A stretch of 26,234 nt of DNA from a virus, in IMG/VR virus record IMGVR_UViG_3300046007_009330, positions 1-26,234 of that record; one strand, written 5' to 3'. Both the position numbers and the translations under genes were made by a program. Numbering within the stretch: the stretch's first letter is position 1; each line of letters opens with the position of its first letter. The notes under the pieces were generated by a model, which was given only the letters and a program-made list of their open reading frames with translations, had not been told where the DNA came from and searched no databases. Below are positions 4,531-21,472 of this stretch, in pieces.

Positions 4531-4575
4531 TTTCCCAACTCCAGCCCGACGCAGTGAAGAACTCGAAAGGTGTAC

Positions 4576-6681
4576 ATGCCGCAGCAGCGGACACACACTT
4601 TCATGCCACTCGTCGCACCGCCAGCCACTCCAGATCCCGAATTAGCCGCTCTCCGCGCTAAGTCGGCATTGCAGCGCAAAAAGACCAAGACTCCTTTGGA
4701 GGATCGCTTGGCAGCAGGAGACGGGTCGCGGGCCGTGCGTCTGGTTCAATGGGCACGGACGCAAAAACAAGCCTATGACGCCAGCCTCATCACTTGGCGT
4801 GCAAATCGCATCAAGTGGGCGCAGGAAGCGCAGGACATTTTCGACCATCGTGCCGCCGCTCGCAAAGAGCAGGAAGACGAAGACCCGTCATCCGTCTTTG
4901 AGGTCGCGAACGAGTCCATCAACATCGTGGCAAGTCTGGCCGAATTTGCCGCCGCTCAGGCCGAGCAGGACATTTACGGCGGCGATCCATGGTTTGCAGC
5001 TATTCCCGTGGGTCGCTCAGATCCAGATCTTGCCGAGCAGGTGCAAAAGCATCTGCAATGGTCGTTCCGCGACGGTCGCATGGTGGATACGCACTGCCAG
5101 GGCATCGACCAAGCCGTCACGCTCGGGGAATGCTACCACAAGACGCTCTACTGCATCGACACCGACGAAAGCGAGTCAGTTGTCCCATGCCTGCACGTCA
5201 ATGGGAAGCCCGTGACGGACCAGAACGGCCAATACGTCACCACCGACGAGCAAGCGGCTACTCTTGGCCCTCTCAAAGGCAAAAAGGAGTGGAAGGACGC
5301 CTTCACGAAGCAGCAGACCGTCATCCGCCAGGGCGTCGAAGTGCTCCCCATCCACTTCAACGACATCTCGTTCCGCGAGGACGCCCCCGAACTCGATCTT
5401 CGCTACACGTCTGTCTATATCTCGGTGGAGATGAGCGTTTTTGAGGCCATGCGCCGCTTCAAGCTGTCCAAAGAGGACGCTATCAAACTGGCGCAGGTGG
5501 CAGGTGCCAAAGTTGCCGCCCAAGAGCATCAGCAGGAAAAGCGCAACGACACCACGGCCACGACCACCTTTACCGAAACGGAAGAATTGGGCGAGGAGGA
5601 AGCCGAAAAGCTGCTCAATACCCGCGTGCGGCTCATCGAGGGGTATATCCGCGCCGACGCGACCGGCACAGGACAAGAAGTCCGCATGTGCATCGTGTTC
5701 CCGCCTACTGGCGAGGACTGGATCATTTGGGCGGATTACCTCGCCAACATCTCCCCCAAGGCAGAATTGCCTGTGAAGTGCGAAGTCTGGGAGCCGGTGC
5801 CGCATCGCTCCTATGGCCGTGGGTTCTTTGCCAAGTATGCCTACCTCCAGACGGGCACCGACAACCTTTGGAATCAGGTCAGTTTCCGAAACGCGATGCA
5901 CGCCAACCCCATCGTGGGGCTGCACCTCGATAAAATGGATCGTGACGAAGACACAGAGGAGTTCGTGCTCAAGCCAAATGTGTCCGTCCATCTCAAAGGC
6001 GACAACAAACTGGCGGACGCCATCGAGACGTTCAGCCTCCCCGATGCCGACAGCCGCAGCATGGAGCTGATGCAGATTGGTATGCAGCTTGCCCAACTGC
6101 GTTCCGGCATCACTTCGGCCAGCCAGGGCGATATGTCCGGCATTCCAGAGTCAAACACCGCAACCGGCATCCGCTCTCTGATGAGCCGTGCCGCCGTGCT
6201 TTTGAAGAAGCCCATTCGCCGCATGCGCCGCGCCAAGGGACGGGCATTCAGCTACGCGGTGAAGCTCCACTATTCCAATTTCGACCGCGAGGAGGCATTT
6301 GTGTGGGGTGAAGGGCGAAACCAGCAGCTCATCACCATCACGCCCAAGCAAGTCAACGATCTCGACATCGACGTGCGGATGCTACTCACTCAGGAGCAGA
6401 ACCAAACGAAGCTCGAAGGTGCGCAGGTGGCAAGCGGCCTGATCGCGCAATGGCTCGCCGTGCCCGAGGCGGAAAAACCCGCCGTTCGTCCTCTTTTTCT
6501 CCAAGCCATCAAGGCGCTCGACTTCGACCAAGCCGACGAGATTGTCCGGCAGGCCGTGGCGCAAATTGAAGATTGCATTTCGCTTTTGTCACCCGAACAA
6601 GCTCAAAGGCTCCAAGGGCTGCTCGCACTTGAGCAAAACTTGCCTCAGACACCCGCTCCTCCTCAAACCACACCGCAGTAA
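4576..6681 (+). CDS. Portal protein (head-tail connector, podovirus type)
   Basis: A 701-residue portal, the ring through which DNA is packaged and ejected. The ATG at 4576 is preceded by GAAAGG at 4565-4570 with a five-base spacer, better than the GTG at 4570. Portal-like features are an N-terminal helical part with FEVANESINIVASLAEFAAA, a wing region with DISFREDAPELDLRYTSVYIS, and YLQTGTDNLWNQVSFRNAMH (about 5843-5902). A C-terminal helical crown follows (SGIPESNTATGIRSLMSRAA, then Arg/Lys-rich helices). The length of about 700 residues is typical of P22/T7-like portals rather than of the shorter HK97 type, which supports a short-tailed phage. The C-terminus is Gln/Pro-rich. It is unusual that the terminase is on the other strand about 15 kb away instead of directly before this gene. 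Confidence 0.88.
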   Translation: MPQQRTHTFMPLVAPPATPDPELAALRAKSALQRKKTKTPLEDRLAAGDGSRAVRLVQWARTQKQAYDASLITWRANRIKWAQEAQDIFDHRAAARKEQEDEDPSSVFEVANESINIVASLAEFAAAQAEQDIYGGDPWFAAIPVGRSDPDLAEQVQKHLQWSFRDGRMVDTHCQGIDQAVTLGECYHKTLYCIDTDESESVVPCLHVNGKPVTDQNGQYVTTDEQAATLGPLKGKKEWKDAFTKQQTVIRQGVEVLPIHFNDISFREDAPELDLRYTSVYISVEMSVFEAMRRFKLSKEDAIKLAQVAGAKVAAQEHQQEKRNDTTATTTFTETEELGEEEAEKLLNTRVRLIEGYIRADATGTGQEVRMCIVFPPTGEDWIIWADYLANISPKAELPVKCEVWEPVPHRSYGRGFFAKYAYLQTGTDNLWNQVSFRNAMHANPIVGLHLDKMDRDEDTEEFVLKPNVSVHLKGDNKLADAIETFSLPDADSRSMELMQIGMQLAQLRSGITSASQGDMSGIPESNTATGIRSLMSRAAVLLKKPIRRMRRAKGRAFSYAVKLHYSNFDREEAFVWGEGRNQQLITITPKQVNDLDIDVRMLLTQEQNQTKLEGAQVASGLIAQWLAVPEAEKPAVRPLFLQAIKALDFDQADEIVRQAVAQIEDCISLLSPEQAQRLQGLLALEQNLPQTPAPPQTTPQ

Positions 6682-7868: not shown

Positions 7869-9700
7869 GTCCATCCGTAACCAAACTGCTCGATCTCATC
7901 GACGCTGGCAGCGTGAAGCCTGCGAATGCCCGCGAGGCAATCCGGCAAGCGGGCGGGGATGCGCTCTGCATTTTGGAGGCTGTGCGCTCTTTGGCGGCAG
8001 GTGCCACGTCGGCAGGAATGGGCATCAACGTCAAGGATAGCGCCTATGGAGCCAAAGGCGACGCGAAAAAAGTCACCGATGGTGCCAGCACGAATGGCAG
8101 CACGACGGTGACGAGTGCCAGCGGACTGTTTACGGCGGACGATGTAGGGAAAGTGATCTGGGGCGTGAAGACTTCCACGAAGGCGCTGGCGGTGCCACTT
8201 GGCACCATCGCCACCTATGTAAGTGCCACGGAAATCACCGTTAGTGTGGCGGCGACATCCACTGAGGCGGGTCTGCATCTCGTGTGGGGCACGAATGACA
8301 CGGCAGCCATTCAGGCCGCGCATGCAGCGGCGATGGCAATGCAGCCTCGCGGCCTCGTGACGGTGCCTGCGGGGGGCTACATCTTCGATGAAGTGCTGTT
8401 TGATTTCACCGAGGCCGCCCCCGTGAAAAGCGGCGGGGTGCTCGGCGCGGGCAGTGGCAGCACGATCTTTTATCCGTCTCCGGCGCATGATTTGGCCGGG
8501 ACTTCGATGCTGGCGATCACCGGCGGTAACAACAATTACACGCGGCTCGAAGGCTTTGCGGTGGACGGCTGTTATTTCCAATGGTCGGCCACGTTCAAGA
8601 ACGTTATCCAGCTCGCGGGATTCCTCATGGAAACCGTGCGGGATGTGCGGCTCGAGTTCCTTTATGGCATGACGGACGGGATTAAGGCGCTGGGTTATTT
8701 CACGAGCTTGGAGCGCGTCTATGTGGAATCGACCGCTTCGTATGGTGTGACCTTGGCGGCTGGCGGGAGCGCTTTCGTCAGCGATTCCGTGTTCGCGAAC
8801 TGCGTCAATTTCTCGCTGAACATCGAGAGCGTGGCGGGCACTTCGAACGCGAAGAGCTTTGTGCGTGTGCTGAATTCCTGGGTGGATGAAAGCGGATCTG
8901 GAGCCTTGTATACCACGGGCAGCACAGATGTGGTTCTGGAAGGCGTGCGCGTGAGCGGCCCGGTGGGCGCTGCTGGATTGCAGCTCGCCAGTTCCAGTGT
9001 GGTGCATGCCATTGGCTGCGAGCTACTACCATGGGGAACGACGGGAAATCGCCCTGGGGCCAATGTGGCAAGTGGCTGTGTGCTGCATGCCACGAACTGC
9101 CGCTTTGATGCGGCGGGCACGGGCAACGCACTGACCAATGCGGGCACGGTGCATCTGGTGAACTCACGGCTCACGGTGCTCGGCAGCGGTGTGGCTCTCG
9201 CCAACACGGGCACGGCCAATGATCTCGGCGGGAATGTCATCGCCAGCAGCAGCGGCACGGCAGCGGTGCGGTTTGCGGGGTTGGGGGCAAATACTTTCAC
9301 GGGGGCACAATCCTTGCCAACGGGTAGCGCTGCTGCACCCTCATTGACTGGACCTGACACCGATAGCGGGGTGTATTTCTCTGCCAACAACCAGATTGAT
9401 TTTGCCACGGGTGGAATTCGTCGCTGGTATATCGACAGCTCGGGCATTCTCCAAGGCGCAGGTCATGTCATCCAGAACAGCGGCAATGCCATCTTTGGCA
9501 ATGTGTTCGCTCGCGGTAATTTGTTGTCCATTGGGGCCTCTGATGATGTGAGTGTGCGTGGCGGTAGTGGATCGCCGGAGGGTGTCATCAGTGCGAAACA
9601 GGGCAGTGTTTACCTTCGCCACACAGATGGCGGCGCGGGCACCACGTTTTACGTCAAAGAAAGCGGCGGCACGGGCAACACCGGATGGGTCGCAAAGTAA
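7865..9700 (+). CDS. Tailspike / tail fibre with pectate-lyase-like beta-helix
   Basis: A 611-residue receptor-binding protein. Residues 1-45 form a short helical segment shared with the upstream microprotein. Residues of about 56-110 (GINVKDSAYGAKGDAKKVTDG) match the start of the pectate-lyase-3-like domain of phage tailspikes. Repetitive Gly/Ala/Ser/Val-rich sequence of about 130-480 fits a right-handed parallel beta-helix. The C-terminal part has SGVYFSANNQIDFATGGIRR and YIDSSG, a pattern frequent in phage fibre distal regions. The protein would sit at the tail tip, bind and possibly cleave surface polysaccharide. I cannot place catalytic residues with confidence. Its start overlaps the microprotein stop, so the two are probably translationally coupled. 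Confidence 0.82.
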   Translation: MSPSVTKLLDLIDAGSVKPANAREAIRQAGGDALCILEAVRSLAAGATSAGMGINVKDSAYGAKGDAKKVTDGASTNGSTTVTSASGLFTADDVGKVIWGVKTSTKALAVPLGTIATYVSATEITVSVAATSTEAGLHLVWGTNDTAAIQAAHAAAMAMQPRGLVTVPAGGYIFDEVLFDFTEAAPVKSGGVLGAGSGSTIFYPSPAHDLAGTSMLAITGGNNNYTRLEGFAVDGCYFQWSATFKNVIQLAGFLMETVRDVRLEFLYGMTDGIKALGYFTSLERVYVESTASYGVTLAAGGSAFVSDSVFANCVNFSLNIESVAGTSNAKSFVRVLNSWVDESGSGALYTTGSTDVVLEGVRVSGPVGAAGLQLASSSVVHAIGCELLPWGTTGNRPGANVASGCVLHATNCRFDAAGTGNALTNAGTVHLVNSRLTVLGSGVALANTGTANDLGGNVIASSSGTAAVRFAGLGANTFTGAQSLPTGSAAAPSLTGPDTDSGVYFSANNQIDFATGGIRRWYIDSSGILQGAGHVIQNSGNAIFGNVFARGNLLSIGASDDVSVRGGSGSPEGVISAKQGSVYLRHTDGGAGTTFYVKESGGTGNTGWVAK

Positions 9701-10893: not shown

Positions 10894-11453
10894 CCACCGA
10901 TCAAATCATTTTCATGCAAAAGCGCATCGGTGCCACGCCGGACGGCTTTTGGGGGCCGAAGTCGCAGGACAGGTGCCGCCTGTATTTGCGCTCGCTCATG
11001 CCTGCGAAGAATCCATGGCCCGCCAGCGATCAAACCAGCCTGACGAAGTTTTACGGCAAGCCCGGTGATGAGTCGCAACACACCGCGCTCGATGTCAGCG
11101 ACTTGGATGTGCGTTACGAAGGCAAACGCGTCAAAACCATCCGCTGCCACAAAAAAGTGGCCGCCAGTTTGAAGCGGGTGCTCGTCGCCATCTCGAAAGG
11201 TCCACACGCTTGGGTATTGCAACGATTCGCCGGATGCTACAACAACCGCCCGATGCGGGGCGGTAGCCTGCCCAGCCTGCATGCTAGAGCCGCCGCTACG
11301 GATTGGGATGCTGAAAATAACAGCTACAAAGCGAACTGGCCGCTCAGCGCATCAATGCCTCTCGAAGTCATGGAAGAGTTCTCGAAAGAAGGCTGGCTTT
11401 GCGCAGGCGCTTTCTGGAATTACGACGCCATGCATGCGCAAGCCACCCGCTAA
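10890..11453 (+). CDS. Endolysin: peptidoglycan-binding domain plus M15-type peptidase
   Basis: A 187-residue lysis enzyme. Residues 1-35 (FMQKRIGATPDGFWGPKSQD) match the short peptidoglycan-binding repeat with its typical ATPDGxWGPxS. The C-terminal domain carries the M15 (VanY/D,D-peptidase-like) zinc signature: SLHARAAATDWD with His131 and Asp138, and DAMHAQ with His182. These would cut peptide stems or cross-links in peptidoglycan. There is no signal peptide, so it depends on a holin for access. Its ATG overlaps the hydrolase stop (ATGA). Confidence 0.85.
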   Translation: MTTDQIIFMQKRIGATPDGFWGPKSQDRCRLYLRSLMPAKNPWPASDQTSLTKFYGKPGDESQHTALDVSDLDVRYEGKRVKTIRCHKKVAASLKRVLVAISKGPHAWVLQRFAGCYNNRPMRGGSLPSLHARAAATDWDAENNSYKANWPLSASMPLEVMEEFSKEGWLCAGAFWNYDAMHAQATR

Positions 11454-11467
11454 CCAAATACCACTTT

Positions 11468-12136
11468 ATGCCAGCTCCTACTCTCACAGGCATCTCACCC
11501 AGCATTGGCGCAATTGCGGGCGGCCAAACGGCAACTCTGACCGGCACAAACTTCACCGGCACCACGGGCGTCACCTTTGGGGGCGTTGCGGCCACGAATG
11601 TGACCGTCGTAAGCGCAACGGAGATTACTTGTGTGATTCCTGCGGGTAGCTTGGGCGTCGCCAGCGTGCTTGTGACCAACGGCAGCGGCACCAATGGGGC
11701 AAACTCGCTGTTTTTCTACATCCAGGCGCAACCGACTGACACTTACATCTACCTCAGAGGTGGTCGAGGAGACGGTTTTGTGCCTGAATGGACGGGAGTC
11801 GTCACGGAAGTCGAAACCGATGAAAAAAGCGACCCCTATCGGAACATTTTCCCTTCAAGCAAGGTCACGCCAGCATTCTCCACAGGCTCCATTGGCGGCA
11901 TCGCCGTATTTACTGCCACAAGCGCGAACGGTTTCTTGGACGACGGCGAAGCAATGACGGCGCTGAACCTATCCAACGTCAAAAGCCGCCTTTCCGATGA
12001 AGTTGGCGGGATCACTCCCCGCCAGTTTGATAAAGCTACAACGTGGCTCGTCTTTCTGTCCGCAAATGGCCTGACCTACGAGTTCCGAAAGGATTTGGTC
12101 ATTGGTCGGTCAAGCCAGCCGCGAGACAGCGACTAA
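11468..12136 (+). CDS. IPT/TIG-domain phage structural protein
   Basis: A 222-residue protein. Residues 1-90 form an Ig-like IPT/TIG domain: PTLTGISPSIGAIAGGQTAT, then LTGTNF, VTFGG and ITCVIPAGSLGVASVLVTN are the diagnostic strands. The remaining part is unrecognised but contains ordered-looking stretches (YIYLRGGRGDGF, TTWLVFLSANGL). Ig-like domains in phage usually decorate capsids or tails and bind carbohydrates weakly. The start is the ATG at 11468 with no Shine-Dalgarno. It opens the gene run that leads to the His-rich and glycosyltransferase-like genes. Confidence 0.75.
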   Translation: MPAPTLTGISPSIGAIAGGQTATLTGTNFTGTTGVTFGGVAATNVTVVSATEITCVIPAGSLGVASVLVTNGSGTNGANSLFFYIQAQPTDTYIYLRGGRGDGFVPEWTGVVTEVETDEKSDPYRNIFPSSKVTPAFSTGSIGGIAVFTATSANGFLDDGEAMTALNLSNVKSRLSDEVGGITPRQFDKATTWLVFLSANGLTYEFRKDLVIGRSSQPRDSD

Positions 12137-12145
12137 ACTACCGCC

Positions 12146-12949
12146 ATGCCCGTTACTTCTACATTTGATTGGATCGACACGCCCAAACCTACGGAGCGGG
12201 CGTTCAAGATCACAGCCAAAGAAGATCCATCGGACCAAATCCCTGATTTCATCAACCAGCGCATCACATGGGCGACTTGTCCGGGATGGATCAAGAAAGC
12301 CGAGAATGTACCGGTGAGCCTGCAAGGCTACACGCTCGTGCATGCCGCGAAGGCTGGATTCCAAACGCGAAACTTCTTCTTCGCCAAGACACGCACAACG
12401 GCGGAGCGCCGAACACCGTTTGAAACTACCTGGGTCACGCGGCCTTTCCCGTGGCCTACGGTGCTGCTCAAACTGTGGGCAGAGGAAGGCGTCATTCCAG
12501 TTTCCGCACTGTCGGCCGATGGGAATGTTCAAAGCGTTGGCGGCACGTTGTTTCGAGATCGGCACCGCCCTGGCGGATCATACCCGACCCTGTTCCGCAT
12601 TCAGCATTTCCTGTCTGAGCGCCCATTTCCCAAAAAGCGCCATCTTGCACCCATCCCAGACTCGATTTCATGGGAATGGGATGGCGTTCGAGGCTCCTTC
12701 CCGTCCTGCCTGCATCCCGGTGTTGTGGTCACGAACCAGTACACCACTGGCAATGTCGTCTTCGGCTTTGGGACGCCCACCAAAGAAATCGGCGGCGATC
12801 TGGTGCGCCAAGAATACCCTCCGACCGATATGGAGGATTGGGAACCTTTCGTCATCGAGGACACGCGCAACAATGTGCTCGGCACCTTGCAGCATCGCAT
12901 CGTCGTGAAGGCGTTTCCACCCATTGACGATCGGGAGGTGAAATCGTGA
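12146..12949 (+). CDS. Hypothetical phage protein, probably tail or tail-associated
   Basis: A 267-residue protein rich in aromatic residues and Pro, with many short beta-like segments (FQTRNFFFAKTRTT, WVTRPFPWPTVLLKLW, VVVTNQYTTGNVVFGFG). There is no signal peptide or membrane segment, and no enzymatic motif that I recognise. It starts ten bases after the IPT/TIG gene. Its stop overlaps the GTG start of the Pro-His protein, so the two are likely co-translated. The strong GGAGG at 12934-12938 inside its 3' end serves the next gene. Position suggests a virion component; function not known. Confidence 0.72.
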   Translation: MPVTSTFDWIDTPKPTERAFKITAKEDPSDQIPDFINQRITWATCPGWIKKAENVPVSLQGYTLVHAAKAGFQTRNFFFAKTRTTAERRTPFETTWVTRPFPWPTVLLKLWAEEGVIPVSALSADGNVQSVGGTLFRDRHRPGGSYPTLFRIQHFLSERPFPKKRHLAPIPDSISWEWDGVRGSFPSCLHPGVVVTNQYTTGNVVFGFGTPTKEIGGDLVRQEYPPTDMEDWEPFVIEDTRNNVLGTLQHRIVVKAFPPIDDREVKS

Positions 12950-13500
12950 TCGAAGCCGGGCGAGCCGTATCGCTTTTCGAGCAAGGCACGCACTCCATGA
13001 GTGGCAACGGGGCGCACACCTTCCAAGGTATCAGCCAGCCCTATGTGATTCATCAAGCGACACCGCTTCCGACTATTGAGCGGAAGCCGAACGTGTTGCA
13101 ACCGGCTGTTCCTCCGCCTGCGGGTAGCTCGCTGGGTGGTCTGTGGACCGGATGGCTGGTGAGTGTGGGGGTGCCGGTGACGCCTCCTGACCCGCACCCG
13201 CACCCGCATCCTGACCCGCACCCGCATCCTGACCCGCACCCGCATCCTCACCCGCACCCGCATCCTCACCCGCACCCGCATCCTCACCCTCATCCTCACC
13301 CTCATCCTCACCCGCACCCGCATCCTCACCCGCACCCGCATCCTCACCCGCATCCTCACCCGCACCCGCATCCTCACCCGCACCCGCATCCTCACCCTCA
13401 TCCTCACCCGCACCCGCATCCTCACCCGCACCCGCATCCTCACCCTCATCCTCACCCTCATCCTCCACCTCCTCACCCCCATCCCCATCCTCCCCCATGA
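12946..13500 (+). CDS. Protein with a C-terminal Pro-His dipeptide repeat tail
   Basis: A 184-residue protein. The first 80 residues are ordinary (AGRAVSLFEQGTHSMSGNGA, then a Pro-rich linker). From residue 81 to the end there is almost only alternating Pro and His: three Pro-Asp dipeptides near the start of the tail, about 43 Pro-His dipeptides, then PPPP and three more His. Such a tail would bind transition metals (Ni, Zn, Cu, Co, Fe) and be extended. It starts with GTG at 12946, supported by GGGAGG seven bases upstream, and overlaps the genes on both sides. The tail is encoded by in-frame 6/12/18-base DNA repeats, so its length probably varies. Metal binding is inferred from composition; the biological role is unknown. 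Confidence 0.75.
   Translation: MIEAGRAVSLFEQGTHSMSGNGAHTFQGISQPYVIHQATPLPTIERKPNVLQPAVPPPAGSSLGGLWTGWLVSVGVPVTPPDPHPHPHPDPHPHPDPHPHPHPHPHPHPHPHPHPHPHPHPHPHPHPHPHPHPHPHPHPHPHPHPHPHPHPHPHPHPHPHPHPHPHPHPHPHPPPPHPHPHPPP
13186..13461 (+). repeat. Hexamer-based tandem repeat encoding Pro-His
   Basis: Forty-six consecutive hexamers of the form CC(G/T)(C/G)A(C/T). Most are arranged in an 18-base unit (CCGCAC, CCGCAT, CCTCAC), with interspersed 12-base blocks of CCTCAT plus CCTCAC. The first, fifth and eighth hexamers are CCTGAC and encode Asp in place of His. Every unit is a multiple of three bases, so slippage or recombination changes protein length without breaking the frame. One strand is very C-rich and its complement G-rich. 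The opposite strand is also open and would read as Arg-Val/Met repeats, which I treat as a shadow. Confidence 0.95.
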
Positions 13501-14072
13501 TACATCCGGTCATTCCATTGGATCTACCTTCCACGGCCAGGGTCGTTTTGGTCGGGAATGGTCCCTCGTTGCTGGCGGCTGCCAAGGGCAACGACATTGA
13601 CGCTTTTGATGAGGTGGTGAGGTTCAATCGATTCAAACTGCGAGGTTTTGAAGTTCACACAGGGACGCGCACGACGCTCTGGAGCACGTTTGGACATGGC
13701 TATCTTCCTGGCGACGAGGATGTGAGGCCGGAGCGCATGATCTTTGTCTATGGGGAACGCGGCGAGCCTGCTTATCAGCCCCAGGAGATTTATCGCATTC
13801 CGAAGGCGTTCTACAATGAACAGTGGGAACGGCTGAAAAATCAGGCAAAACGCCCGTGCAGCATTAGTAGCGGTTTCGTGGTCACAATGTGGCTGCTCAA
13901 TGTGGTTGGGTTGGAACAGGTGACGCTGGCCGGGTTCGATCATTTTCGCAAAGACTTCAGCAACCAACACCATTATTACAACCCACGAGGCTACGGACGT
14001 CCGCCTGAGATGGCTGGCGATGCCGAAGCGGAATTGCTGGACGAACTGGGGGAAAAGATCATTAGATTATGA
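13497..14072 (+). CDS. GT29 (sialyltransferase)-like protein, stand-alone, possibly inactive
   Basis: A 191-residue protein with the sialyltransferase-type motifs of family GT29. The L-like motif is VVLVGNGPSLL, then IDAFDEVVRFNRF, GFEVHTGTRTT (residues 16-60). The S-like motif is SISSGFVVTMWLL, then VTLAGFDHF (122-150). HHYYN at 158-162 matches motif III. By hand alignment to the fused domain downstream, the histidine of the VS motif (H-x4-E) is Met172 here while Glu177 is kept, so the catalytic base of known GT29 enzymes may be missing. There is no membrane anchor, unlike eukaryotic relatives. Start and stop both overlap neighbours. Donor and acceptor sugars are unknown; a role in modifying host or virion glycans is inferred. 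Confidence 0.75.
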   Translation: MIHPVIPLDLPSTARVVLVGNGPSLLAAAKGNDIDAFDEVVRFNRFKLRGFEVHTGTRTTLWSTFGHGYLPGDEDVRPERMIFVYGERGEPAYQPQEIYRIPKAFYNEQWERLKNQAKRPCSISSGFVVTMWLLNVVGLEQVTLAGFDHFRKDFSNQHHYYNPRGYGRPPEMAGDAEAELLDELGEKIIRL

Positions 14073-15157
14073 ACGAACTCGATAAATACTTGGGGATCTA
14101 TGGCTCCGAAGGACTGCCTGGTTACGGGCATAGCAACCATGGTGCGCGTTCGATTGCTTTTCTTGAGAAATGGCAACCTCGTTCATTGGTGGACGTGGGT
14201 TGTGGTTTTAACGAATATTGCCAAGCTATCCGGCAGAAATTCAGCATTCGGGCCGTTGGCGTCGATTTTGCCTGTCCTGGCGCTGACATTAAAGCCGCTG
14301 CGACCTCTCTACCTTTTGCTGACCAGGAATTTGATGTTTTGACGTCGTTCGATTGCTTGGAGCATCTGTTGCCAGCGGAAGTTGAGGTGGCTTTGCTGGA
14401 GATGGCGCGGGTGAGTGCCCGCTTTGTATTCTCGATTTCTTATGCTCCCTCTAAATGCCGGTGGAAAGGACAAGGCCTGCATCCAACTGTCCATAGTGAG
14501 CAGTGGTGGATCTCCCAAATCATGCGAGCTGGCGGGGCAAAATTGGTGAAGGTGGGCAAGTTTTTAACGGGTGTCTGGCAGCGAAGGTTGCCGATAAAGC
14601 CGGGGGACTCCGTGGTGCTTGTTGGCAATGGTCCGTCGGTATTTCAATCCACCCGTGGGAAAATGATTGATGAATTTGATCACATCGTTCGGTTCAATCG
14701 TTTTGCGACTGCAGGTTTTGAGCGGTGGGTCGGCTCTCGCACGACTCTTTGGTCCGCCACGCCTTTAGCAGGGAAAGATGGCATCCGCCATGATGAGTGC
14801 TTGTCCATCAATGAAGGTGCGTTGGTTGGGGTGGCGTCTAACGTGCATGATGTGCCGGACCATTACCGACGCGAGGTGACAGAAGCCTTGTGCCAAAGAG
14901 CGCAGTGGATGACGGGATTTAGAACCGATAGCCGCAGGCGGATCAAACCTTCGTCTGGCCTGCTGGTGATCGCGTATTTAGCGGAAATTGTTGGAGTTCA
15001 CGTTTTGCACGCTGTGGGCTTTGATCATTTCGCGGGCACAATTGCCCATTATTGGGATACCGATCATGGGATTGCTGGGGACGCGTCTCACGACGGGCAA
15101 GTCGAGTCGCGCTTTTTTCAAGATTTGGTTTCCTCCGGTCGGGTTGTTTTACTGTGA
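14069..15157 (+). CDS. SAM methyltransferase fused to GT29 (sialyltransferase)-like domain
   Basis: A 362-residue two-domain protein. Residues of about 30-125 are a class I SAM-dependent methyltransferase: SLVDVGCGF (motif I, 39-47), VGVDFA (63-68), SLPFADQEFDVLTSFDCLEHL. Residues of about 178-362 are GT29-like: SVVLVGNGPSVF, IDEFDHIVRFNRF, GFERWVGSRTT, then KPSSGLLVIAYLA and HAVGFDHF. HYWD (327-330) and the H-x4-E motif (His341, Glu346) are complete, unlike in the upstream paralogue. A plausible activity is transfer of an acidic sugar plus methylation of the product, on surface glycans or phage components; this is inference. Its ATG overlaps the preceding stop, and its last nine bases overlap the convergent minus-strand gene. 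Confidence 0.82.
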   Translation: MNELDKYLGIYGSEGLPGYGHSNHGARSIAFLEKWQPRSLVDVGCGFNEYCQAIRQKFSIRAVGVDFACPGADIKAAATSLPFADQEFDVLTSFDCLEHLLPAEVEVALLEMARVSARFVFSISYAPSKCRWKGQGLHPTVHSEQWWISQIMRAGGAKLVKVGKFLTGVWQRRLPIKPGDSVVLVGNGPSVFQSTRGKMIDEFDHIVRFNRFATAGFERWVGSRTTLWSATPLAGKDGIRHDECLSINEGALVGVASNVHDVPDHYRREVTEALCQRAQWMTGFRTDSRRRIKPSSGLLVIAYLAEIVGVHVLHAVGFDHFAGTIAHYWDTDHGIAGDASHDGQVESRFFQDLVSSGRVVLL

Positions 15158-20560: not shown

Positions 20561-21472
20561 ATGACCGTCCGCCAAGCCATCGACGCAATGCTTCGCTACC
20601 TCCGCCCGGAGCAGCGTGTGTTTCCGTTTGTGAGCACGGACTATGACGACCCGCTTCCTGACGCCCTCAGTGCGTGCAATGCGGCCTTGCAGCAAATGGC
20701 GGTGTTTGCTCCGCTGTTTGCTGTGAAGCAGCAGCGAAGCGCCTACTTTCGAGCACCGTCCACCTTGGCCGTGGCAGGACTCACGAACGGCGGCATGACG
20801 GCAACGGGGGACTTTCCGGCGTGGTCGGTGGGTTGCTGGGTGCAGCTTCCCGGAGATGCGGATATGAATCGTATCCTCTCCATCTCGGGGACGACGGCCA
20901 CGTTGCAGTTTCCTCACTTGTCCGCCACTGCGGCAGGTAATGCCACCATCAAGGTCGATACGGTTGAACTGGCTGAGGACATCATCACGGTTTTGGAGCC
21001 GGTGCGCTACCGTGGCACCGTGAACAAGCTCAAGCCTGCCAGCAGCCGCACCGCACTCAGCGATAGCCAAGAGGAAGGGCGTTACTTCATCGAGTCCGCT
21101 CTGAGTGGCAGCAAAGTCCGGCTGCGCATGATGCTTTCAGGCCACGTCACGGCAGACACCGTGTTCGAGTTCCAGGCACGCACCGCCTTGGGCAGCATCA
21201 GCCAAGCGGATGTTTACGACGAAGAGACGCCCGATGCAGATCCCGGCGTGGCGGTGCCGGTCCCGACTGGATTTGTCGAGTCGATCTTCCTCCCGCTGGC
21301 GACGGACTTGTTCTTCTCCAAGCCGTGCGTGGTGAACTACGATACGGCAGGCCAGCTAAACCGCGATGCGGTCAAACTGGTGCGCGAGCAGGCGCAGACG
21401 GCGCTGGCAATGCTGGAGCGCATGCGCCCACAGGGCAGCAAGGCGACGAGGATCGTTCCGGGGTGGCAGTAA
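20561..21472 (+). CDS. Probable head-completion / head-tail adaptor protein
   Basis: A 303-residue protein. The N-terminus (TVRQAIDAMLRYLRPEQRVF, then DALSACNAALQQMAVFAPLF) looks like the helical start of phage adaptor proteins that bind the portal. The middle is a beta-rich barrel-like part (WVQLPGDADMNRILSISGTT). The end is helical again (DAVKLVREQAQTALAMLERM). It starts three bases after the co-chaperonin and ends one base before the convergent minus-strand gene, so it is the last gene of the head operon. The role is inferred from layout, size and helix-barrel-helix plan; no diagnostic motif was found. Confidence 0.6.
   Translation: MTVRQAIDAMLRYLRPEQRVFPFVSTDYDDPLPDALSACNAALQQMAVFAPLFAVKQQRSAYFRAPSTLAVAGLTNGGMTATGDFPAWSVGCWVQLPGDADMNRILSISGTTATLQFPHLSATAAGNATIKVDTVELAEDIITVLEPVRYRGTVNKLKPASSRTALSDSQEEGRYFIESALSGSKVRLRMMLSGHVTADTVFEFQARTALGSISQADVYDEETPDADPGVAVPVPTGFVESIFLPLATDLFFSKPCVVNYDTAGQLNRDAVKLVREQAQTALAMLERMRPQGSKATRIVPGWQ

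Follow-up and report, generated by a model that had tools for sequence, protein, structure and literature searches.

A virus record of 26,234 bases (IMGVR_UViG_3300046007_009330), referred to over its full length as the window, derives from a phage, probably of Verrucomicrobia bacteria. The region holds portal and major capsid matches. The portal, at 4570-6681, is SU10-type (PF23899, 5e-19) and has no relative in 50,697 annotated phage records at E 1e-5; these phages are a poorly sampled lineage. The genes of interest, all on the plus strand, are as follows.

11399-12136 (+), TIG-domain protein gene upstream of the 267-aa gene, start codon uncertain; the order is the same in locus L036 (by tblastn) and, by eye, in L042 and L113
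12146-12949 (+), gene of a 267-aa family protein with a beta-rich model (pLDDT 87), used as the marker of the locus
12946-13500 (+), slot gene, encoding a Pro-His (PH)-tailed protein of 184 aa with a GTG start
12946-13185 (+), N-terminal segment of the slot gene, aa 1-80
13186-13497 (+), repetitive tail, aa 81-184, with an uninterrupted (PH)38 block at 13234-13461
13497-14072 (+), predicted GT29-fold enzyme gene, joined by an ATGA overlap
14069-15157 (+), methyltransferase-GT29 (MTase-GT29) fusion gene, also ATGA-coupled

The Pro-His gene and its closest counterparts

The tail from aa 81 holds only Pro, His and three Asp. The sequence-only reading had reported a long C-terminal run of about 43 PH dipeptides, and this observation is confirmed with exact coordinates, although the count is 46, of which 38 form one uninterrupted block at aa 97-172. 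Tandem Repeats Finder locates the array at 13181-13496 with periods of 12, 18 and 30. The slot gene start overlaps the upstream stop (GTGA, 12946-12949) and its stop overlaps the start of the GT29 gene (ATGA, 13497-13500), and therefore coupling on both sides is plausible. A frameshift artefact was rejected, as the N-terminus runs in frame into the tail both in the window and in L042. A frameshift joining PH and GT29 was considered from the sequence and dropped for want of a clear slippery site.

Contig IMGVR_UViG_3300046009_012051 is 100% identical to the window over 14,623 bases including the array, but is probably the same virus and was treated as such. A scan of viral contigs with the N-terminus returned only this sister contig. 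A diverged contig, IMGVR_UViG_3300034112_002103 (L018), has a portal 50% identical to that of the window and also carries a 104-aa PH-tailed gene, with a 21-unit block, followed by a GT29 gene 84-87% identical to that of the window. The N-terminus of this second PH-tailed protein does not align with that of the window and holds a collagen-like stretch. Apart from a 300-base portal stretch, the DNA matches of more than 100 bases between the two contigs (E 1e-5) begin in the PH array and end near the end of GT29. Thus, tail and GT29 form a shared unit in otherwise different phages.

In both PH blocks, of 38 and 21 units, all variation lies at third codon positions. Viral contigs hold 25 stretches with ten or more CAYCCN units, and only this virus and its diverged relative are taken as PH-coding. 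That was judged by eye from the translations and is not proven for the rest: frame length does not separate them, because the two real genes also have a longer open frame on the array (22 of the 25 loci examined; L016 and L028 repeat L008, and L031 repeats L007).

Searches of annotated records were negative. The 184-aa protein has no Pfam, PHROGs or NCBIfam family at E 0.01, and the 267-aa protein has none either. In the 50,697 phage records no match was found for window DNA by megablast, for the portal, for the PH protein or for the 267-aa proteins of the window, L060 and L065; GT29 matched only LR756508. The predicted fold of the 267-aa protein has no BFVD match at E 0.001 or better and no PDB chain at Z 5 or more among those aligned. 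Several phage tail-tube, terminator and neck chains align over residues 1-82 at Z about 3.3-4.2, which is within noise and does not place the protein in the virion. A PDB sequence search with the 267-aa profile returned nothing at E 1. Among possible hosts, 2 of 387 genomes in a sample of the phylum (one a 4.8e-4 fragment with a stop) and 6 of 386 in a sample of the order matched this profile, mostly genomes already found. Thus far the locus is known only from uncultured viral contigs and Verrucomicrobiota assemblies. No paper on a PH-repeat phage protein or on this gene cassette was seen in literature searches, which covered few subscription papers.

A slot gene with many tails

The 267-aa gene served as the marker for related loci, each designated by L and a number. 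Profile scans gave 7 viral loci, and then 54 viral loci and 5 genome loci, the latter all titled as Verrucomicrobiota MAGs; one more, L113, came from an order-wide search and is not in the counts. Sixty records were walked, after leaving out further copies of the same contigs. L075 (where the contig ends), L100, L101 and L104 gave no slot gene, and L103 is a copy of L018. That leaves 55 slot genes including the window, 53 by profile and L036 and L018 by position, and some are close copies from different contigs. The slot gene is the next gene after the 267-aa gene in all but L018, where one small gene lies between.

The tails fall into distinct classes. PH tails are found in the window and L018; PT tails in L042, L056 and L102, with PTTAP in L097; PS tails in L048, L050, L065, L067, L069, L070 and L071; and collagen GXY tails in L055, L060, L062, L086 and L087. 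Short Gly-rich tails with a C-terminal Tyr are present in L049 and L051, and also in L113. L057, L058, L059, L079, L083, L084, L088, L089 and L092 have no tail but a C-terminal FxY. L094 (6001-6255) and L095 (5938-6192), one lineage only, have neither. The rest carry T/S/P runs, some with extra domains, except L081, which is cut before the tail. In L088 (8585-8686) and L089 (7792-7893) a repeated peptide-like stretch (DETRSPRLLASL) is found in the open frame just before the slot start.

The best N-terminal match of the window is L042, which is 44% identical over 61 aa (E 2e-12), shares a GGLWxxWLVxVGV element before the tail, and carries (PT)45. Similarity of the window N-terminus to the wider family is weak by sequence: E 40 with a smaller seed, 0.2 against the wide profile without the window, and 0.023 against the profile of its own clade. 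The N-termini of L018 and L036 do not match.

These relatives bear on the purpose of the PH tail. The interpretation offered in the sequence-only reading is partly supported. The His-Pro tail and the coupling to a GT29-like gene hold, as does, indirectly, a place among virion genes: in L064 an exchanged block of DNA ends just before a homologue, by eye, of the window gene at 20561, and in L018 that gene lies directly before the 267-aa homologue. A metal-loaded tail as the purpose, by analogy with phage spike tips that bind iron through HxH motifs, is not supported. Homologues with the same neighbours had been named beforehand as a test, and they show that the gene is kept but its His is not, the best slot match having PT and others PS, T/S/P, collagen or no tail. 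No spike or PAAR-type domain was found in the protein by Pfam, PHROGs or NCBIfam, and no metal-site domain or metal gene was seen among the 20 window ORFs scanned. In favour of metal loading on the virion, or metal buffering in the cell, are the 46 alternating His and the maintenance of PH at the protein level in two divergent phages. Metal binding by the PH variant itself is chemically plausible from sequence alone, but as an account of the gene it appears unlikely.

Neutral expansion of simple sequence, with tails as slippage products tolerated at the end of a gene, appears very unlikely. The PH tail is a short-unit tandem DNA repeat, and the kind of tail changes between near relatives. However, the frame is kept through very different repeats, and in most slot genes the tail ends at or within a few bases of the next gene. 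First and second codon positions are invariant in the PH units while third positions vary, though few mutational events may underlie this because units spread by duplication. In addition, tail class tracks enzyme class, as described below.

Enzyme genes behind the slot and their exchange with the tail

Of the 55 slot genes, 48 are followed by an assigned gene family whose match starts within -4 to +37 bases of the slot stop. Five (L050, L052, L066, L070 and L081) run into a contig end, and L094/L095 have no assigned enzyme. Twenty representatives were scanned with Pfam: 2OG-FeII_Oxy_3 was found after collagen tails (L055, L060), GT2 in L036 (twice), L047 and L097, GT9 in L048, L065 and L090, and FkbM and other methyltransferases in L057, L098, L047 and L097, with L065 below cut-off. 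Eight of the 20 had no family, and their names (GT8-like, GT29d, MT, unknown) were given by eye. Other loci were assigned by tblastn to these representatives. Of the 48 first genes, 16 rest on Pfam through representatives (GT2 4, 2OG oxygenase 3, GT2-MTase 3, GT29 2, GT9 2, MTase-GT29 1, FkbM 1), 4 lie below the Pfam cut-off (MT24), and 28 are named by eye or unknown (GT8-like 11, MT 7, unknown 7, GT29d 3), with no Pfam or NCBIfam hit for those tested. A conserved family of about 306 aa behind T/S/P tails (L063 6151-7071, and homologues in L064, L068, L074, L076, L077 and L096) has no Pfam or NCBIfam hit but looks like a capsule-type glycosyltransferase by eye.

Tail class tracks enzyme class, with exceptions. 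Collagen tails are found with a prolyl-hydroxylase-like oxygenase, PS with GT9, a C-terminal Tyr with a GT8-like protein, and PH with GT29 in both PH loci. The pairing recurs with old enzymes: the oxygenases behind collagen share 42% identity, GT9 behind PS 55%, and the GT8-like proteins 43-48%. The 2OG-Fe(II) oxygenase genes directly behind collagen-like tail genes (L055 10150-10839; L060 9316-9882; L062 9316-9882) represent a candidate phage collagen prolyl hydroxylase pair, and the L055 oxygenase matches PKHD-type hydroxylases in the PDB. Tyr is found in the last eight residues in 11 of 11 GT8-like loci and 1 of 44 others (L048, behind a masked run), and L113, read separately, is a twelfth. 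The tail-less slot proteins with a C-terminal FxY and the Gly-rich ones, L113 included, are all followed by this one GT8-like family. This is reminiscent of glycogenin-type Tyr glucosylation, although the GT8-like name rests on a weak profile match to LgtC (E 0.47). Over 22 lineages grouped by hand, the mutual information of tail and enzyme class was reached by 0 of 20,000 shuffles; the classes were named and grouped after the data had been seen, and the lineages are not independent of descent. As exceptions, the collagen tail of L044/L086/L087 has no oxygenase, PT tails go with GT2-MTase (L056, L102, L097) or MTase-GT29 (L042), and T/S/P tails go with several enzyme sets.

Tail and enzymes are exchanged together. 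On a tree of the 267-aa protein (34 rows), rows with very short branches carry different sets: L060 (collagen, oxygenase) and L061 (T/S/P, MTase, GT29d, GT2-type), and L063 (T/S/P, unknown, MTase) and L065 (PS, MTase, GT9). In DNA, L060 and L061 are 95% identical up to base 8651, at about slot codon 25, and match again from 9879 and 11344, where their last enzyme genes end (9882, 11340). L064 and L065 are 94% identical, break at 9092, at about slot codon 83, and resume at 11798 and 12221, in L064 just before a structural gene at 11844. L073 and L064, 93% identical, break at the same point and resume just inside a shared third enzyme gene; they differ in tail and first two enzymes, but both tails are T/S/P. 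Linkage alone would also make neighbours travel together, and the PH-GT29 pair in particular is one recent shared unit.

The PH-coupled GT29 (191 aa) has a PF00777 match of 1.8e-13 and sialylmotif L. Its model (pLDDT 74.5, from a 4-row alignment) matches ST3Gal1 2wnf at Z 13.4 over 169 residues (2.9 A) and the Maf glycosyltransferase 5mu5 at Z 8.0, and the profile aligns along ST3Gal1 2wnb at E 6.3e-11. Motif III, with its catalytic-acid His, is present (H159-Y160-Y161). The VS motif, however, lacks the His that is the catalytic base in published work (PMC6884586) and whose Ala mutant is inactive (PMC6884586; PMC8433944): ST3Gal1 has HDGDFE and L042 HDGDAE, whereas the window has MAGDAE (M172 to E177) and L018 MDGDAE. 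His is kept in 11 of 11 other homologues judged: L042, the second window GT29 (the MTase-GT29 fusion, whose homologue, of 45% identity, directly follows the PT-tailed slot gene in L042), L114, L115, L116, L117 and L122 by alignment, and L118, L123 and two in L125 by the H-x4-E pattern near the expected place; L119, L120, L121 and L124 are not in this count. Only the two PH-coupled enzymes have Met, and as they are close relatives this is one event. L114, from a genome of the Prosthecobacter order, has a methyltransferase-GT29-GT9-like fusion (outer domains by eye) in an 857-aa open frame, with no PH tail seen in the stretch.

A proposed exchangeable tail cassette

The simplest account is that the PH gene is the histidine version of a modular tail cassette in phages, probably of Verrucomicrobiota, and we put the probability of this reading at roughly 0.6. 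In this view a short N-terminal segment, kept by lineage, most likely anchors the protein to the virion, the C-terminal tail is an exchangeable repeated chain, usually Pro-rich, and the enzymes translated right after it most likely modify the tail or C-terminus: hydroxylation of collagen-like tails, sugars on Thr/Ser tails, and a GT8-like enzyme acting on a C-terminal Tyr. The result would be a variable, chemically decorated chain. The analysis itself establishes the family, its modularity, the association with enzymes and the co-exchange, the last in three phage pairs and in the PH tail-GT29 unit shared by two phages. Display on the virion, the tail as substrate, a role in adsorption or shielding, sialic acid transfer by GT29 and metal binding are inferences without proteomic or biochemical data.

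An alternative is that the tail is only a stiff or flexible spacer or brush, and that the enzymes modify other targets (host envelope, other virion proteins, small glycans) and remain adjacent by linkage or operon convenience. PH, PT, PS, PPP/TTTT and collagen are all extended, polyproline-prone sequences, tail-less slot genes still have enzymes, and phage glycosyltransferases also participate in DNA and host-surface modification (PMC12619734). On the other hand, enzyme type tracks tail type across lineages, the exchanged DNA encloses both, and collagen with an oxygenase of the prolyl-hydroxylase kind, in two lineages, is a specific match of substrate and enzyme. L094/L095, a natural control for the link, lack both repeated tail and assigned enzyme. 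The spacer reading is possible but less likely.

The cassette model explains coupling, co-exchange and pairing, but for PH itself it stops short. The tail has no Ser, Thr or Tyr, which excludes ordinary O-glycosylation of the tail, and its GT29 lacks the usual base. GT29 may act on the His, on the N-terminal part or on another protein. Either it is idle or acts elsewhere, and PH is then a bare chain, possibly metal-binding, or His is its partner. Perhaps the enzyme puts a sugar on the imidazoles of the tail (protein-histidine glycosylation) or borrows a tail His as its base. This is an unlikely reading, but one not excluded by the evidence; more broadly, tail chemistry (hydroxyproline, O-glycan, Tyr-glycan, His) would be swapped as a unit with its own modification enzymes.

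It is often unknown what the glycosyltransferases and oxygenases carried by phages act on. This locus names a candidate substrate next to each enzyme and offers natural swap pairs (L060 against L061, L064 against L065) in which candidate substrate and enzyme change together. If the tails are displayed and modified, this would be an exchangeable surface-chemistry module of phages, and the PH/GT29 pair would bear on whether a GT29 without its usual base can work with histidine.

Several known systems share parts of this arrangement. Mycobacteriophage virion glycosylation (Freeman et al., 2023, as cited in PMC12619734 and PMC11256854) also involves phage-encoded glycosyltransferases, with glycans reported at C-termini of virion proteins (PMC12619734). 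There the targets are reportedly capsid and tail tube proteins, whereas here the putative target is a dedicated small protein with an exchangeable repeated tail and several enzyme types, an oxygenase included. Glycosylated serine-rich repeat adhesins are likewise low-complexity proteins encoded side by side with glycosyltransferases, but they are bacterial surface proteins; the PH locus has the adjacent GT29 and MTase-GT29 genes but no Ser or Thr acceptor in its repeat, whereas the T/S/P, PT and PS relatives do have such residues. Collagen-like stretches are found in prophage genes of E. coli O157:H7 (PMC3368898); here collagen is one of several interchangeable tails, and two of three collagen lineages have a coupled 2OG oxygenase. 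The GT29 sialyltransferase ST3Gal1 (PDB 2wnb/2wnf) shares the predicted fold, sialylmotif L and the HYY of motif III with the PH-coupled enzyme, but keeps the VS-motif His and has 298 aa in the solved chain against 191. In the tail-fibre tip cassettes of Mu, P2 and T4, a conserved N-terminus and variable C-terminus are exchanged together with a matching downstream chaperone gene; here the downstream genes are enzyme families, and the variable part is mostly repeated sequence.
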